Assembly: GCA_002238825.1 (NCBI GenBank)
Contig: MPNC01000001.1
Span: 372,001-436,000, forward strand
Source: SAR202 cluster bacterium bin87
GTDB taxonomy: Bacteria > Chloroflexota > Dehalococcoidia > Lucifugimonadales > UBA3495
Direction: 5' to 3'
Length of the DNA: 64,000 bases
Below are positions 26,518 to 34,357 of the stretch, piece by piece (position 1 is the first letter of the stretch; each line of letters begins with the position of its first letter). The notes below the pieces were generated by a model. The model saw nothing but the letters and a program-made list of their open reading frames with translations. It made no database searches and was not told the origin of the DNA. A program made the position numbers and the translations under genes.

Positions 26518-26642
26518 TGGGTTACTCCTTCCGGTAGATTCACGAGTGCAGACAGGGGTGATTCCGGGTCGTTCCCGTTTGACACCCCTGCCGAATGCGG
26601 GTAGCCTTGATTGTGATTTACAGAACAAACGGCACTGAGATT

Positions 26643-29258
26643 ATGGATGATTTGAAACGCAACAACGAGTTGAAATCGTTGCTTCGCGAGCGCATTTTAA
26701 TCACCGACGGCGCGATGGGGACCCAGATCCAGGCGAGAAACCTGGGGCCCGACGATTTCGGGGGCGAGGAGTATGAGGGGTGCAACGAGTACCTTAACAT
26801 AACCCGGCCCGACGTGATCGACGACATCCACCGCGGTTACCTGGAAGCCGGCGCGGATATCATACAAACCAACACCTTCGGCGCAACCGCGCTGGTGCTG
26901 GGCGAGTATGACCTGGCTCACGAGGCGCGCCGGATCAACCGAGAAGCCGCAGCCATCGCCAGGCGGGCGGCGGATGAGGTAACGGCGACCGAGCCGGAGA
27001 AGCCGCGTTTCGTGTACGGCGCGATGGGTCCGACCACGCGGACGATATCGGTCACCGGCGGCCTGACGTTCGACGAGCTGGCGGCAGACTACCATCAGCA
27101 GGCTGCCGGGCTCATCGAGGGCGGCGCCGACGTGCTGGTGCTGGAAACGGGCCAGGACACGATCAACATCAAGGCAGGGCTGGAAGGGATCGATCGAGCC
27201 CGCGCGGAACTGGGGACTGACGTTCCGGTAGCGGTGCAGGGAACAATCGAGCCTATGGGCACGCTGCTGGCCGGCCAGGATGCCGAAGCGTTCTACACCT
27301 CGCTGGCGCACCGGGACCTGCTGTGGGTCGGTTTCAACTGCGCCACCGGGCCGGAGTTCATGACGGACCACATACGCACGCTGAACGAGTTGTCGCAGTT
27401 CGGTATCGCCTGCGTGCCCAACGCGGGTCTGCCCGACGAGGACGGCAACTACAACGAGACGCCGGAGATGCTGACGGCCACGCTGGAGCGGTTCGCGTCC
27501 AATGGCTGGCTGAACGTGACCGGTGGGTGTTGTGGCACCGGTCCGGACCACATCCGCCACCTGGTCGAGGCAATGGCTGACAAAAAACCGCGGGTGACCC
27601 AGCCCCCGCTGGAGACCCGGGTTTCAGGTATCGAAGCCGTGGTCGTGAACGAGGACACGCGACCGACCATTGTGGGCGAACGGACCAACGTGCTGGGCAG
27701 CCGCAGGTTCAAGCGGATGATCGCTGGCGAACGTTTCGAGGAGGCGGCTGAGATCGGCCGTCGCCAGGTCCGAAACGGGGCCCACGTGCTGGACGTATGT
27801 CTGCAGGACCCTGACCGTGACGAGACGGCAGACGTGATCAAGTTCCTGGACCAGCTGAACCGGCGGGTCAAGGCGCCGATCATGGTCGACTCGACGGACG
27901 CGGCGGTGATCGAGGAGTCGCTGAAGCGGCTGCAGGGCAAGTCCATCATCAACTCCATCAACCTGGAGGATGGAGAGGAGCGATTCCAACGTGTGGTTCC
28001 GCTGGCGCGTCGGTACGGGGCCGCCTTGGTTGTGGGTTGCATCGACGACGATCCCCAGCAGGCGCAGGCGATCACTCGAGAGCGGAAATTGGAGATCGCC
28101 CAACGGTCCCACCGGCTGCTGACCGAAAAATATGGTGTCGCAGAAGAGGACATCATCTTTGATCCGCTGGTGTTCCCCGCCGGGACCGGAGACGAAAACT
28201 ACGTCGGCTCGGCGGCCGAAACCATCGAAGGCGTCAAGATGATCAAGGAGGCGTTGCCCCGGACCAAGACGGTACTCGGCATTTCCAACGTTTCCTTCGG
28301 TCTGCCGGCGGCGGGCCGCGAGGTGTTCAACTCGGTTTTCCTGTACCACTGCACCCAGGCCGGGCTGGACATGGCCATCGTCAACTCGGAGATGATGCAG
28401 CGTTACGCCACCATTCCCGAGGACGAGCGCAAACTGTCCGAAGACCTGATCTGGAACCGGGGTGCGGATCCCGTGGCCGCGTTCGCGGCGCACTTCCGCG
28501 ACCGGGCGCCGCGGGCCACCGCGGAGGAAAGGTTGGCATTGCCGCTGGACGAACGGCTGGCGCAGTGCATCATCGAAGGCAGCAAGGAAGGGCTGGCCGA
28601 GGACCTGGACCTGGCCCTCCAGGAACGGCAACCGTTGGCAATCATCAACGGGCCGCTGATGGCCGGTATGGATGAAGTGGGGCGGCAGTTCAACGCGAAC
28701 CAGTTGATCGTCGCCGAAGTGTTGCAGAGCGCTGAGGCCATGAAGTTCGCGGTGGCGCACCTTGAACCTCACATGGAGCGCACCGACGCCGCGTCGCGTG
28801 GACGGGTGCTGCTGGCCACGGTCAAGGGCGACGTACACGACATCGGCAAAAACCTGGTGGAGATCATCCTGTCCAACAACGGCTACAGAGTGATCAACCT
28901 TGGGATCAAGGTGGCCGCCCAGGAGCTGATTGCGGGTTACCGCGAGCATCAGCCGGACATAATCGGGTTGTCGGGGCTGCTGGTGAAATCGGCTCAGATG
29001 ATGGTCGAAACGGTGCAGGACTTCCGCACGGCTGGCATCGCAGCGCCGGTGCTGGTGGGCGGCGCGGCCCTGTCCAACCGGTTCACCCGGCTGCGCATCG
29101 CGCCGGAGTACGACGGACTGGTGGCGTATTCGCCGGACGCCATGACCGGATTGGCGTTGGCCAACGTGATACGGGACGACGACGAGCGGGAGCGATTGAT
29201 CGCGCGTCTGGAAACCGAAAGCGTTGAGCTGGCCGAGCAAGTGGCCGCCCGTGGGTAG
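26643..29258 (+). CDS. metH: Cobalamin-dependent methionine synthase, catalytic part (no activation domain)
   Basis: This 871-residue protein has three of the four MetH modules. The homocysteine-binding barrel (residues 1-310) carries zinc ligands in NCATGPE and GGCCGTGPDH (Cys296-297). The methyltetrahydrofolate-binding barrel (about 325-590) contains RPTIVGERTNVLGSRRF. The cobalamin module (about 625-865) has DVHDIGKN, in which His732 is the lower B12 ligand. Full-length MetH has about 1200 residues and ends in an AdoMet-binding reactivation domain, absent here but encoded by the overlapping next gene. No cobalamin riboswitch is recognisable upstream. Together with nrdJ it shows dependence on B12. 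Confidence 0.93.
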   Translation: MDDLKRNNELKSLLRERILITDGAMGTQIQARNLGPDDFGGEEYEGCNEYLNITRPDVIDDIHRGYLEAGADIIQTNTFGATALVLGEYDLAHEARRINREAAAIARRAADEVTATEPEKPRFVYGAMGPTTRTISVTGGLTFDELAADYHQQAAGLIEGGADVLVLETGQDTINIKAGLEGIDRARAELGTDVPVAVQGTIEPMGTLLAGQDAEAFYTSLAHRDLLWVGFNCATGPEFMTDHIRTLNELSQFGIACVPNAGLPDEDGNYNETPEMLTATLERFASNGWLNVTGGCCGTGPDHIRHLVEAMADKKPRVTQPPLETRVSGIEAVVVNEDTRPTIVGERTNVLGSRRFKRMIAGERFEEAAEIGRRQVRNGAHVLDVCLQDPDRDETADVIKFLDQLNRRVKAPIMVDSTDAAVIEESLKRLQGKSIINSINLEDGEERFQRVVPLARRYGAALVVGCIDDDPQQAQAITRERKLEIAQRSHRLLTEKYGVAEEDIIFDPLVFPAGTGDENYVGSAAETIEGVKMIKEALPRTKTVLGISNVSFGLPAAGREVFNSVFLYHCTQAGLDMAIVNSEMMQRYATIPEDERKLSEDLIWNRGADPVAAFAAHFRDRAPRATAEERLALPLDERLAQCIIEGSKEGLAEDLDLALQERQPLAIINGPLMAGMDEVGRQFNANQLIVAEVLQSAEAMKFAVAHLEPHMERTDAASRGRVLLATVKGDVHDIGKNLVEIILSNNGYRVINLGIKVAAQELIAGYREHQPDIIGLSGLLVKSAQMMVETVQDFRTAGIAAPVLVGGAALSNRFTRLRIAPEYDGLVAYSPDAMTGLALANVIRDDDERERLIARLETESVELAEQVAARG

Positions 29259-30165
29259 CGCCGCCACAGCAGCCGGCGTCGCCGCTCTGGAATCGTCGCC
29301 CCGGCCGCCTGATTTGCGGCTCCACGTGCTGGACGACTACGATCTGGACGAGATCTTCGGGTACATCAACCCGCAGATGCTCTACGTGCGCCACCTGGGA
29401 TATCGAGGACGTTTCTGGGAGGCATTGCGGGAGGATGAGCCCAAGGCCGTGGAACTGCACCGGCAGGTCCAGCGGATCGAAGAAGTGATGCTGTCGCGCT
29501 CCGATATCAGTGCCAGCGCGGTGTTCAAATTCTTCCCATGCCGCTCAGAGGGGCAATGGCTGATCGTTTACGAGCCGGACGGCGTGAAAGAACTGGAGCG
29601 GTTCTACTTCGGCAGACAGCAGGAACGTGAGGGCCTGTGCCTGGCCGACTACGCGCGCCCGGTCGGAGAGGGTCCGAACGATTACCTCGCGATGTTTACG
29701 ACCAGCGTGGGCCCGGGCATACGCGACCTGTCCGAAAAGTGGAAGAACGAAGGCCGATACCTGGACTCGCACACCCTGCAGGCCCTGGCCATCGAGTCGG
29801 CCGAGGGCTTCGCGGAGTTGCTGCACCGGCGGATCCGCACCATGTGGAACATCGGCGAATCCTCGGGCCTGAAGGTGAACGGCGAGGACGAGCTTCGCGA
29901 CCTGTTCCGGGCCAACTACCGGGGCAAGCGGTTCTCATTCGGATACCCCGCGTGCCCCCGGCTCGAAGACCAGGAAAAGCTGTTCGCCCTGCTGGACGTG
30001 ACCGCGAATACCGGGGTTGAGCTGACGGACGGATACATGATGGATCCGGAGGGTTCGGTTTCAGCCGTGGTTTTCCACCATCCACAGGCCAAATATTTTA
30101 ACCTGGATGAGGCGGATATCGAGAGGCTGGAAACCGAAATCGCGCAGATGCCGGCGGGTCGATAG
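29251..30165 (+). CDS. Stand-alone AdoMet-dependent activation domain of methionine synthase
   Basis: This roughly 304-residue protein corresponds to the C-terminal reactivation domain of MetH, which remethylates oxidised cob(II)alamin using AdoMet and an electron donor. The signature is the RGKRFSFGYPACPRLEDQ region near residue 240; further evidence is FGYINPQMLYVRHLGYRG near the start and VYEPDG after a phenylalanine-rich stretch. A GTG at 29251 lies inside the end of metH, giving an 8-bp overlap, so both halves are probably made together. Split MetH proteins are known, for example in Thermotoga. A rho-independent terminator follows. Confidence 0.9.
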   Translation: MGSAATAAGVAALESSPRPPDLRLHVLDDYDLDEIFGYINPQMLYVRHLGYRGRFWEALREDEPKAVELHRQVQRIEEVMLSRSDISASAVFKFFPCRSEGQWLIVYEPDGVKELERFYFGRQQEREGLCLADYARPVGEGPNDYLAMFTTSVGPGIRDLSEKWKNEGRYLDSHTLQALAIESAEGFAELLHRRIRTMWNIGESSGLKVNGEDELRDLFRANYRGKRFSFGYPACPRLEDQEKLFALLDVTANTGVELTDGYMMDPEGSVSAVVFHHPQAKYFNLDEADIERLETEIAQMPAGR

Positions 30166-31133: not shown

Positions 31134-32759
31134 ATGACGACCATCCAGACCACCGATGCGGCGCTGGCCGCCGAACGGACTGGCGCATCGCCAAACACGA
31201 TTGTCGGGCATGCGGGAGGCCACGAGGGAGCCAGTCCGTTCCCGCGATATACCGCGGTCATAGACGTCGGGTCCGGGTCGGCGCGGGCAGTGGTGATGCA
31301 GGTCAATCACGGGGGCGGCATCGAGATCGTTGCCCAGCAACGGGTAACGCTCAACCTGATGAGCCACGTAGGAAGCGACGGGTACCTCGACGAACAAGGA
31401 CTGGCGAGTGCGCTGGACGCGCTGGAGGACTTTGCGCTGGTGGCGCGGGCGTACGGGATTGAAACAATCCACGCCGTGGGTACTGCCGCGCTGCGCGAGT
31501 CGGGCAACGCCCAACAGATTACCGTCGCGGCAGAGCACAGATTTGGTGTACCGTTGCGGATTATCGACGGTTCCGATGAGGCGGCCTACTGCTTCGTGGG
31601 CGCGATTCACGGGTTGGGAACCCAGGACGGGCTCCTGGCGGATATCGGCGGCGGCAGCACCGAGGTGGTCCAGTTTCGAGACCGGAAGCTAAGGTCGAGC
31701 CTGTCACTGCCGTTGGGCAGTCTACGGATCGCCAATCAGTTCGATCTCGGCGATCGTCCGGAAGCAGAATCGGTGCAGGCGGCGTACGATTACGTGCGAG
31801 CGGTTCTCACAAATGCCGGGGTTGAGCCGCTTCCGGACGGCGCCACTCTGGTTGGATCCGGAGGATCAGTGCGTTTGCTTTCCCGGTTGGACCGGCTGCG
31901 TGAACCCTATCCCATCATCAAGCTGCACGGATATGAGATTCGGGCTTCCGCCCTGGTCGAGCAGATTGAACAATTGGCTGCGATGTCCCGGATCGACAGG
32001 GCCAGCATTCCCGGAATGAATCCCGAGCGGAGCCATTCCATAATCGGCGGCGCGGTGGTGGCGCACGCGTTGATGCAGCACCTGGAGACGGACCGGTTGC
32101 TGGTGTCCGGACAGGGACTGCGCGAGGGTCTGGCGCGTCACCCGGAACCGCCGTCCACGTGCGAGGGCGTGCAATTGCCGCCGCTGGAATCGGTGAGGTC
32201 GGAATCGCTGGCGGACCTGGTGGGAAGGTTTGCGGATCGATTTGGTCAGCGTGGCGAGAGGCGAGCCGATCTGGCCGGACGAATCGCCGACGCGGTGTGG
32301 AGCGGCGGGAACCGTCAGTTGGCGAATTCGCTGCGCTGCGCTGCCAGGCTCCTGGATATCGGAAACGCGGTGGACTATTACAATCGCCTCAATCGGACTG
32401 CGAGTATAATAGTCCGAACCGACCTGCCTGGTTTTACCCACGCGGAATCGGCGCAGATCGCGACCACGCTGCTGGCCGCCGAATCTGGGCCCCTGCCGCG
32501 CCGGTTCCGGCAAAACCGGTTGGTGTCGCCGGCAGAATTGCGATTGGTCGATCAGGCGGCAGTAATGCTGTTAACGGCCGACGAATTGGACGGCAGAATG
32601 CCAAAGGGAATGGCGGCAAACGCGGTTACAATAGGTCGAGAGGAAGGGACCTGGCGCATCGCGACCCCGAGTTGGTCAGCGGTGGCTGCCCCCAGCCTGC
32701 CGGCAAAGTGGAAAAAGGCGTTCGCAGAAGACGTACGAATAGAGAGGAGTGCACCATGA
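31134..32759 (+). CDS. Ppx/GppA-family phosphatase (exopolyphosphatase-like)
   Basis: This 541-residue protein has the actin-like phosphatase fold of exopolyphosphatase/guanosine pentaphosphatase. The first phosphate loop is IDVGSGSARAVV, the second is ADIGGGSTEVVQF near residue 170, and GSGGSVRLLSRLD follows near 240. The C-terminal half (about 350-540) resembles the HD-type helical domain of long Ppx proteins. The ATG at 31134 follows TTGAGGT. Its stop overlaps the start of a thymidylate-kinase-like gene (ATGA), and a second such kinase follows, so its activity is probably linked to theirs. Whether it cleaves polyphosphate or (p)ppGpp is undecided. Confidence 0.88.
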   Translation: MTTIQTTDAALAAERTGASPNTIVGHAGGHEGASPFPRYTAVIDVGSGSARAVVMQVNHGGGIEIVAQQRVTLNLMSHVGSDGYLDEQGLASALDALEDFALVARAYGIETIHAVGTAALRESGNAQQITVAAEHRFGVPLRIIDGSDEAAYCFVGAIHGLGTQDGLLADIGGGSTEVVQFRDRKLRSSLSLPLGSLRIANQFDLGDRPEAESVQAAYDYVRAVLTNAGVEPLPDGATLVGSGGSVRLLSRLDRLREPYPIIKLHGYEIRASALVEQIEQLAAMSRIDRASIPGMNPERSHSIIGGAVVAHALMQHLETDRLLVSGQGLREGLARHPEPPSTCEGVQLPPLESVRSESLADLVGRFADRFGQRGERRADLAGRIADAVWSGGNRQLANSLRCAARLLDIGNAVDYYNRLNRTASIIVRTDLPGFTHAESAQIATTLLAAESGPLPRRFRQNRLVSPAELRLVDQAAVMLLTADELDGRMPKGMAANAVTIGREEGTWRIATPSWSAVAAPSLPAKWKKAFAEDVRIERSAP

Positions 32760-33595
32760 CCGTATTGCAAGAAGAGCACGCGTACAAAATGGGCGAACGC
32801 TATGGGCTCCATCCCGATGATGGGCAGTACCCCGGCAAGCTGATCATAGTCGAGGGCATTGACGGCTCCGGCAAGAGCACGCAGATCGACCTTCTGGGCA
32901 AATGGCTCAACAGCCAGAACCTGGTCACCGTGTTCACCGAGTGGAACTCGTCGCCCATCGTGCGACGGACCACCAAGCGGGGCAAGGTTGAAGAGCTTCT
33001 GACGCCCATGTCGTTCAGCCTGATCCATGCCGCTGACTTCGCCAACCGGGTCCACGCGCAGATACTGCCCGCGCTGCGGGCCGGCGCGGTTGTGCTCGCG
33101 GACCGCTACGTGTTCACCGCGTTCGCGCGGGACGCCGCTCGGGGGGTCAACCGGGAATGGCTGCGACGGGTCTACTCGTTCGCGGTCCAGCCGTCCCTGG
33201 CGCTGTATTTCAAGGTGCCGCTGGATGTGTCCATCCACCGCATCACGGTCGGGCGCGAGGAACTGGGCTACTACGAGTCGGGCCAGGACATGGGCTTTTC
33301 CAGCGACCGGGAGGAGTCCTTCCGGATGTTCCAGGGCAAGCTGCTGGACGAGTACGACGCTCTGACGGAAGAGTTCGGCCTGATGACCATCGACGCCACC
33401 CAACCGATTGCCGTGCAGCAACAGCAGGTGAGGAAGTACGTGGAGCCGTTGCTGGAAGACGTGATGGCGATCCGTGGCCAGAGTGTCCCAGAGGCCTTGG
33501 GTCGCGCCGGGCTCACCGGGCGTTACATCACCTCGCCCGTGCGCCGCCGTTTGACGGAACAGGAAGCGTTGGCAGCCGCGAAATCCGACGGCTAG
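32756..33595 (+). CDS. Thymidylate-kinase-like P-loop kinase, paralogue 1
   Basis: This 279-residue protein has a Walker A GIDGSGKST (Lys40), an ADRYVFTAFARDAARG segment that replaces the Tmk DRY..S..AYQ signature, and a C-terminal tail of about 60 residues beyond normal Tmk length. The Gln that contacts thymine in TMP kinases is not obvious, so dTMP may not be the substrate. It overlaps the ppx stop codon by 4 bp (ATGA). From memory, similar proteins occur in pairs with the paralogue downstream. A phosphotransferase in nucleotide or polyphosphate metabolism is the best general description. Confidence 0.8.
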   Translation: MTVLQEEHAYKMGERYGLHPDDGQYPGKLIIVEGIDGSGKSTQIDLLGKWLNSQNLVTVFTEWNSSPIVRRTTKRGKVEELLTPMSFSLIHAADFANRVHAQILPALRAGAVVLADRYVFTAFARDAARGVNREWLRRVYSFAVQPSLALYFKVPLDVSIHRITVGREELGYYESGQDMGFSSDREESFRMFQGKLLDEYDALTEEFGLMTIDATQPIAVQQQQVRKYVEPLLEDVMAIRGQSVPEALGRAGLTGRYITSPVRRRLTEQEALAAAKSDG

Positions 33596-33661
33596 GCCGG
33601 CGCTGGCGATTTGGCCGCTCGAAGATTTTAACGAAGCGAGTGATAACCGGGAGCGACAACG

Positions 33662-34357
33662 ATGAACGAAGTCAGGTTCTACGGTCACACCCCACCGGGA
33701 GCCGGAGACGAAGAAACGCCGGGTCGCCTGATAGTGGTGGAGGGCACCGACGGCGTGGGTCGATCAACGCAGATCGCCATGCTGCGGGAATGGTTGGAAG
33801 CCGAAGGGTACGCGGTGTTGGTGACGGGTTTCCGAAGGTCGGAACTGGCTGCCAATGGGATCGACCGGGCGATGCGCGGCAATACGCTGGACCCGATGAC
33901 CCTCAACCTTTTCTACGCCACCGACTTCTGGGATCGGCTGGAAAAGAACATCGTCCCGGCCCTGCGCTCCGGGATGGTGGCGCTGGTAGACCGCTACATA
34001 TTTTCGATCATCGCCAGGGCCAGGGTGCGCGGCGTGTCCCCACGATGGCTCAATGACGTTTTTGAATTTGCCGTGGTGCCCGACATCGTGCTCTATTTGG
34101 ATGTGGACGTTGAACACCTCGTGCCGCGTGTGCTGTCCGTGCGACAACTGGACCACTGGGAATCGGGTGAGGACTTCCTGCGCGGGCCTGACCTGTATGA
34201 AAACTTCATCACGTACCAGTCCGCTCTGATCGACGAATTCCGGGAATTGGCCAAAGAGCACCGGTTCGTCACCGTGGACGGCCGCGGGAGCGTAGGCGAC
34301 GTTTTTGAGGCCTTGCAGACCGAAGTCCGCAAGGCCCTGGAAGGCATGGGCGGGTAA
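33662..34357 (+). CDS. Thymidylate-kinase-like protein with Lys-to-Arg P-loop, paralogue 2
   Basis: This 231-residue protein has Tmk-like architecture: LIVVEGTDGVGRSTQ (residues 23-37), then VALVDRYIFSIIARARVRG near 113 and an IVLYLDVDVE strand near 140. The P-loop Lys that contacts ATP phosphates is Arg34, which would weaken or alter catalysis in a standard kinase. I recall the GVGRST form from a recurring Tmk-like subfamily, so it is probably not an error. It follows paralogue 1 by 66 bp and probably forms a heteromer or regulatory pair with it. The start codon follows GGGAGCGACAACG. Confidence 0.8.
   Translation: MNEVRFYGHTPPGAGDEETPGRLIVVEGTDGVGRSTQIAMLREWLEAEGYAVLVTGFRRSELAANGIDRAMRGNTLDPMTLNLFYATDFWDRLEKNIVPALRSGMVALVDRYIFSIIARARVRGVSPRWLNDVFEFAVVPDIVLYLDVDVEHLVPRVLSVRQLDHWESGEDFLRGPDLYENFITYQSALIDEFRELAKEHRFVTVDGRGSVGDVFEALQTEVRKALEGMGG

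Follow-up and report, generated by a model that had tools for sequence, protein, structure and literature searches.

A candidate polyphosphate kinase built from two thymidylate kinase-like proteins and encoded beside an exopolyphosphatase gene in a SAR202 bacterium

We analysed a 64,000-nucleotide stretch of DNA (the window; contig MPNC01000001.1, positions 372,001 to 436,000, assembly GCA_002238825.1) from SAR202 cluster bacterium bin87, a member of the Chloroflexota. The window carries three consecutive genes: ppx, encoding an exopolyphosphatase of the Ppx/GppA family, and the genes of two proteins that resemble thymidylate kinase (Tmk), here called k1 and k2. The trio probably encodes a two-subunit polyphosphate kinase derived from Tmk, together with its exopolyphosphatase, and would form an operon for polyphosphate cycling. 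The kinase pair is most likely the bacterial counterpart of a family known from Crenarchaeota. This reading is built on the gene order and its conservation, the loss of Tmk residues, a division of lysine and arginine between the two P-loops, the lack of PPK1 and PPK2 matches in the host genome, and a link between the pair and polyphosphate genes.

Organization of the gene trio

The three genes lie on the forward strand in the order ppx, k1, k2. The ppx stop codon (TGA, 32757–32759) overlaps the k1 start codon (ATG at 32756) in the sequence ATGA, and a 66 bp spacer (33596–33661) separates k1 from k2. The features are as follows.

31134–32759, forward strand: ppx, Ppx/GppA-family exopolyphosphatase, 541 amino acids (PF02541, E = 5.1e-56)
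32756–33595, forward strand: k1, Tmk-fold kinase (PF02223), 279 amino acids, P-loop intact (EGIDGSGKST); candidate for the catalytic subunit of a polyphosphate kinase
32873–32875, forward strand: codon of the k1 P-loop lysine, Lys40 (conserved in 133 of 134 distinct sequences)
33101–33133, forward strand: k1 motif DRYVFTAFARD at the place of the Tmk motif DRY..S..AYQ (from the alignment)
33662–34357, forward strand: k2, Tmk-fold partner (PF02223), 231 amino acids, P-loop altered (EGTDGVGRST); candidate for a non-catalytic or modified subunit
33761–33763, forward strand: codon of k2 Arg34, at the place of the P-loop lysine (conserved in 124 of 130 distinct sequences)
33989–34021, forward strand: k2 motif DRYIFSIIARA at the place of the Tmk motif DRY..S..AYQ (from the alignment)

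A preliminary description of the window, made from the sequence alone, had reported the trio, the ATGA overlap, the 66 bp gap and the last motif of each kinase, and all are exact. It had missed the arginine that replaces the P-loop lysine of k2 (GTDGVGRST). A promoter and terminator scan of the operon found no promoter-like site; it found one terminator-like site, inside k2, and shuffled sequences gave a mean of 2.6.

Both kinases have lost the thymidylate kinase signature

Both kinases score above the cut-off of PF02223 (E = 3.5e-19 for k1, 2.3e-22 for k2). Neither reaches the curated cut-off of TIGR00041, the model for deoxythymidine monophosphate (dTMP) kinase (83.25; k1 80.6, k2 75.7). The best match of both in the PDB is ST1543 (2plr; E = 3e-51 for k1, 4.5e-36 for k2). 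AlphaFold2 models, made with 17 sequences each, have a pLDDT of 80.7 for k1 and 87.2 for k2, and the best Foldseek match of each is again ST1543 (4nzy).

Residues were compared in an alignment of 39 k1 and 39 k2 sequences, picked to spread over 136 and 133, with 42 Tmk (that of the host genome and 41 matching Tmk from the examined loci). The arginine of the Tmk AxR motif, which we take to be a thymine contact, is present in 42/42 Tmk and absent from every k1 and k2 (0/39 each), where phenylalanine or leucine mostly stands; the site falls at k1 position 95. The Tyr-Gln of AYQ is also found in all 42 Tmk, and Arg-Asp occupies its place in all 39 k1. Across the pooled 136 k1, this arginine and this aspartate are each present in 134. 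Among the 39 k2, the tyrosine is replaced by arginine (32), tryptophan (6) or a gap (1), and the glutamine is retained solely in the sequence with the gap (L062).

The host genome (completeness 100%, contamination 4.83%) contains three PF02223 matches: k1, k2 and a canonical Tmk at C32:50756 (DRFAGSTVAYQG), which scores 155.9 bits on TIGR00041, far above both window kinases. Of 62 genomes searched, comprising 58 Chloroflexota that carry the pair or a piece, the host and three archaea, 61 have three or more PF02223 matches; the fragmented G233 has two. The window kinases share the fold, P-loop position and DR motif of canonical Tmk, but differ in the lost AxR and AYQ residues, in scoring below the cut-off and in occurring as an ordered pair.

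We rejected a dTMP kinase role because the signature residues are lost and a canonical Tmk with a far better TIGR00041 score lies elsewhere in the genome; k1 and k2 are unlikely to be the dTMP kinase. That one or both proteins supply thymidine diphosphate is the most improbable of the explanations weighed here, and we give it hardly any credence. It would accord with the PF02223 matches, with the dTMP kinase titles of 2plr, 4nzy, 4rzx and 5h70, and with a k1 score barely under TIGR00041. Against it stand the host's own Tmk, the extra PF02223 genes of nearly all pair-or-piece genomes and the loss of the AxR arginine and AYQ tyrosine in every k1 and k2 aligned. The preliminary description had also suggested that the trio does not supply dTMP kinase, and this view holds. 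The check for a canonical tmk that it proposed turned up the separate gene, which it had missed.

The pair and its Lys/Arg division are conserved across phyla

A search with k1 found the pair, whole or in part, in 59 of 301 Chloroflexota genomes, the host included. Both members are adjacent in 57 by visual inspection of the coordinates; G244 and G266 hold pieces only. A scan of bacterial and archaeal genome contigs (the genome_contigs set) gave at least 538 relatives of any degree. In 79 of the best 80, which were retained, k2 lies near k1; the remaining locus (L154) ends at a contig edge. Judging by the record titles, which can be wrong for metagenome-assembled genomes, the groups represented are Chloroflexi, Acidobacteria, Nitrospirae, Armatimonadetes, Eisenbacteria, Phycisphaerae, Verrucomicrobia, Ignavibacteria, Deltaproteobacteria, Omnitrophica, Actinobacteria, Thaumarchaeota, Methanoliparum and others. 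The conserved order in Chloroflexota and other phyla on which the preliminary description had made its proposal depend is seen for the pair in 57/301 and 79/80. A chance neighbourhood was rejected, since the pair recurs across phyla.

For residue counts we pooled 136 loci: 38 selected Chloroflexota regions, the window, 80 genome_contigs loci and 17 archaeal loci. Two loci are in both the Chloroflexota and genome_contigs groups (L034/L078 and L035/L079). A k2 is present in 133 of the 136 and was not found in L067, L069 (a more distant single homologue) or L154. The P-loop lysine is present in 133 of 134 distinct k1 sequences, and arginine holds the same place in 124 of 130 distinct k2. The exception in L063 arises from swapped k1 and k2 labels, and its order of Lys gene followed by Arg gene is intact. 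The other k2 exceptions are four Sulfolobales-like sequences, which have lysine but DG for DR, and one masked sequence. We rejected the idea that k2 is a broken gene because its frame is open, its arginine is conserved and it shares 35–62% identity with 16 relatives.

In two genomes of one Chloroflexota family (f47; L061 and L062), k2 carries a fused Ppx-GppA domain III/HD domain, and its P-loop is more eroded than in other k2. Additional copies were seen in two genomes: a second, more distant pair in G265 (C70, C805), and a second, more distant k1 in G116 (C18, C6; L067), with no k2 found adjoining.

Phylogenetic trees, made to place the duplication behind k1 and k2, separated Tmk from k1 plus k2 with a support of 0.99 under the first settings. 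Under slower settings the support of this split was 0.69 with all sequences and 0.90 without the Sulfolobales-like k2. A k1 clade appeared only in the first of the three runs (support 0.36), and a k2 clade in none.

The pair is linked to polyphosphate genes and complements PPK1

Searches of the host genome gave no match to PPK1 (PF02503) and none to PPK2 (PF03976). Its single PF02541 gene is the ppx of the trio. PPK1 is found in 145 of the 301 Chloroflexota genomes; with the cut-off applied, 141 have PPK2 and 134 have PPX. PPK1 is rarer where the pair or a piece of it is present (17/59) than where it is absent (128/242). When the 156 PPK1-less genomes are taken alone, a polyphosphate-consuming enzyme, PPK2 or PPX over the cut-off, is present in 32 of the 42 that carry the pair or a piece and in 12 of the other 114 (p = 6e-15 by Fisher's test, an overstated value, the genomes being related and 17 of the 42 coming from one family, f31). 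All such contingency p-values overstate the case because the genomes are related.

Neighbouring genes were scanned within 4 kb of the pair with ten chosen profiles, built for this work, and 20 sample genes were examined with Pfam. PPX lies within this distance in 10/36 Chloroflexota regions, 36/79 genome_contigs loci, 10/10 Sulfolobales-like loci and 6/7 Nitrososphaeria-like loci. For CHAD the counts are 16/36, 33/79, 0/10 and 6/7, and for PhoU 6/36, 10/79, 0/10 and 3/7, in the same order. The zero for CHAD in Sulfolobales-like loci is a threshold effect: five of the ten have a weak downstream match, which in L187 scores 22.1 against a Pfam cut-off of 25.6. Every Sulfolobales-like and Nitrososphaeria-like locus has at least one of PPX, CHAD and PhoU in range (loci without any: 0/10 and 0/7). 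Around L054, Pfam confirmed PhoU, CHAD and an ABC ATPase; it also confirmed CHAD in L038, L119 and L137, and Ppx in L137, L121 and L083.

Two side observations concern these neighbourhoods. MgtE-like genes lie near the pair in L045, L049, L064, L066 and L084, and MgtC-like genes in L061 and L062, with Pfam checks made on L049 and L061; Mg2+ is the usual counter-ion of polyphosphate. L063 (G115:C100) holds a divergent pair, ppx, CHAD and PPK1 in one stretch, which shows that a single neighbourhood can contain both the pair and PPK1.

A different explanation is that the two proteins form a nucleotide kinase acting on some other small acceptor, such as another nucleoside monophosphate (NMP) or a modified nucleotide, and that their link to ppx reflects general phosphate or nucleotide homeostasis. 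Both proteins have the fold and P-loop of NMP kinases, and 19/36 Chloroflexota and 28/79 genome_contigs loci, some on short contigs, lack PPX, CHAD and PhoU within 4 kb. The recurrent neighbours within the scan are ppx, CHAD, phoU and two-component genes (nucleotide genes were not systematically searched for), and the pair is complementary with PPK1. Both facts speak against a small acceptor, and we consider this explanation unlikely.

Several observations weigh against a polyphosphate kinase. The loci just counted mean that roughly one third to one half of cases lack a nearby polyphosphate gene. PPX alone is not significantly linked to the pair (31/59 vs 103/242, p = 0.19). PPK1 is present in the 17 pair-or-piece genomes mentioned above and in 15 of 50 genomes of genome_contigs loci whose titles are not Chloroflexota; in this set, for which completeness is not given, the pair was seen in 49, L154 being cut off at the contig end. 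Ten of the 42 PPK1-less pair genomes also lack PPK2 and PPX, including G218, a relative from the same class. Four listed genomes of the same order lack the pair, and its presence around the host lineage is therefore patchy. The k1 score falls short of the TIGR00041 cut-off by less than 3 bits. ST1543 was deposited as a dTMP kinase (2plr is titled 'probable thymidylate kinase'). Finally, it is uncertain that the k1 and/or k2 locus encodes the polyphosphate-synthesising enzyme published from Sulfolobus acidocaldarius.

Archaeal counterparts and known systems

In a search of 250 genomes from the phylum to which a Nitrososphaerales genome belongs, the matches listed show a close pair in 9 and a more distant pair in 10. 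We retrieved all 10 distant-pair loci and 7 of the 9 close-pair loci. The 10 Sulfolobales-like k1 proteins are 66–100% identical to ST1543 of Sulfurisphaera tokodaii (PDB 2plr, 4nzy, 4rzx and 5h70), the best sequence and fold match of both window kinases; the k1 of L188 is identical to it over 207 residues. ST1543 carries the k1 signature (TEWNSS, DRYIYTAYARD); the titles of its structures name no partner. In 10/10 Sulfolobales-like loci ppx lies directly upstream and k1 precedes k2, which is the order of the window. The k1 of L187 scores 254 bits with the k1 profile and is a clear homologue of the window k1.

In the PF02223 search of 62 genomes, both Sulfolobales-like members have a separate gene that scores better as Tmk (E = 7.3e-41 and 3.6e-42) than k1 (4.3e-28 and 1.2e-27). 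The genome whose k1 is identical to ST1543 has the ST1543 gene beside ppx and another gene that scores far better as Tmk. The window kinases are bacterial and more distant. Sulfolobales-like k2 has lost more than the window k2, with DG for DR in 10/10.

Related systems appear in the literature. According to a passage of PMC11677633, Hofmann et al. (2024/2026) have recently described the polyphosphate-synthesising enzyme of Crenarchaeota, working with S. acidocaldarius, and a citing passage of PMC13318637, which gives the journal version (J Biol Chem 2026, 302:111283), calls it 'a distinct PPK-type enzyme'. The ppx of this organism is Saci_2018, and no PPK had been found there as of 2021, according to the section concerned of PMC7831078. 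In biomining archaea, the Figure 2 legend of PMC10892726 describes a cluster with SixA, PPX, 'dTMP kinase' and CHAD. It resembles the window trio in placing ppx with a 'dTMP kinase', whereas the trio lacks CHAD and SixA; the portion of that paper dealing with the cluster proposes no function for the kinase. Our literature search, of partial coverage, found no paper describing the bacterial pair, and a search on ST1543 and Saci_2019/2020 found no relevant paper.

PPK2 is also a P-loop kinase and structurally resembles Tmk, as described in part of PMC3163519, where 'PPK3' denotes a PPK2 homologue of another bacterium and is a different thing. The window kinases differ from it: PF03976 has no match in k1, k2 or the host genome. 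In a Pfam search extended to E = 1, neither PF03976 nor PF02503 was among the families for k1 and k2, and their matches to TIGR03708 (polyphosphate:AMP phosphotransferase) are insignificant (E = 0.14 and 0.23). Membership of the PPK2 family was rejected for want of a significant profile match.

The preliminary description had named the trio as its best candidate for an undescribed system, possibly a nucleotide/polyphosphate phosphotransfer system or a regulated heteromeric kinase. The polyphosphate link and a probable two-subunit kinase remain of this. The label 'undescribed' is not supported, given the ppx–kinase–kinase order of Sulfolobales-like genomes, the cluster in the legend of PMC10892726 and the polyphosphate kinase reported from S. 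acidocaldarius in the passages cited.

The Ppx protein and a proposed mechanism

The window Ppx belongs to the Ppx/GppA family by domain and motif. It has the PF02541 domain, a sub-threshold match to Ppx-GppA domain III and the motif DxGGGST, in the form DIGGGST. Its closest solved structures are a GppA-type hydrolase and exopolyphosphatases. The phosphate loop reads GSGS. Other locus Ppx frames usually have GSNS or GTNS and otherwise GSNT or GTHS (38 frames; the pattern was not recognised in 27 more), and the GSGS loop may change the activity of the window Ppx.

The substrate, the direction of the reaction, the binding of k1 to k2 and the role of k2 are what we infer in the following scheme. 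The catalytic subunit would be k1, with a nucleotide bound at its P-loop. It would exchange phosphate with the end of a polyphosphate chain lying in the former dTMP pocket, from which the Tmk-type residues are gone. Tmk is a dimer. As a lasting partner whose catalytic P-loop lysine is replaced, k2 probably pairs with k1 and helps to hold the polyphosphate. Ppx would strip phosphate from the polymer.

The kinases might instead regulate Ppx, as a sensor or inhibitor complex binding both nucleotide and polyphosphate, and transfer no phosphate to polyphosphate. The altered k2 P-loop, the domain III fusion in two genomes of one family and the nearness of ppx in many loci would agree with such a role. 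Against it, the P-loop lysine and DR motif of k1 are kept in nearly all sequences, 28 of the 59 pair-or-piece genomes have no ppx over the cut-off, and the pair tracks the absence of PPK1. Regulation of Ppx without phosphate transfer is in our view very unlikely.

A polyphosphate kinase is suggested by the host's lack of PPK1 and PPK2 matches, the complementarity with PPK1, the neighbouring genes, the k2–domain III fusion, the identity of one Sulfolobales-like k1 with ST1543 and, as far as the cited passages go, the enzyme reported from S. acidocaldarius and the likeness of PPK2 to Tmk.

Neighbouring genes in the window

Genes on the opposite strand flank the operon, a short-chain dehydrogenase gene before it and an acyl-CoA dehydrogenase gene after it. 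Further upstream, a methionine synthase (26595–30165) is split into two overlapping frames. The main frame (26595–29258) is without the activation domain, and that domain (PF02965) lies in a separate frame (29224–30165).

Discussion

We found no statement elsewhere of the bacterial breadth of the pair, its Lys/Arg division, the k2–domain III fusion or the complementarity with PPK1, although Hofmann et al. may hold some of these. A broader proposal is evenly balanced in our judgement: that a Tmk-derived kinase, formed by one catalytic subunit and an obligate Lys-to-Arg partner, is a main unrecognised polyphosphate maker of many PPK1-less bacteria in many phyla, of Sulfolobales and of Nitrososphaeria, annotated as dTMP kinase, 2plr included.

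Polyphosphate is a widespread store of energy and phosphate, and a genome without PPK1 may be taken as unable to make it. If the pair is indeed a kinase of this polymer, many PPK1-less bacteria and archaea can make polyphosphate, the 'dTMP kinase' annotations are misnamed, and the structure of the catalytic subunit has already been solved under the wrong name. The conserved Lys/Arg split of the two paralogues offers a clear-cut and testable example of a kinase retained alongside a degenerate partner.

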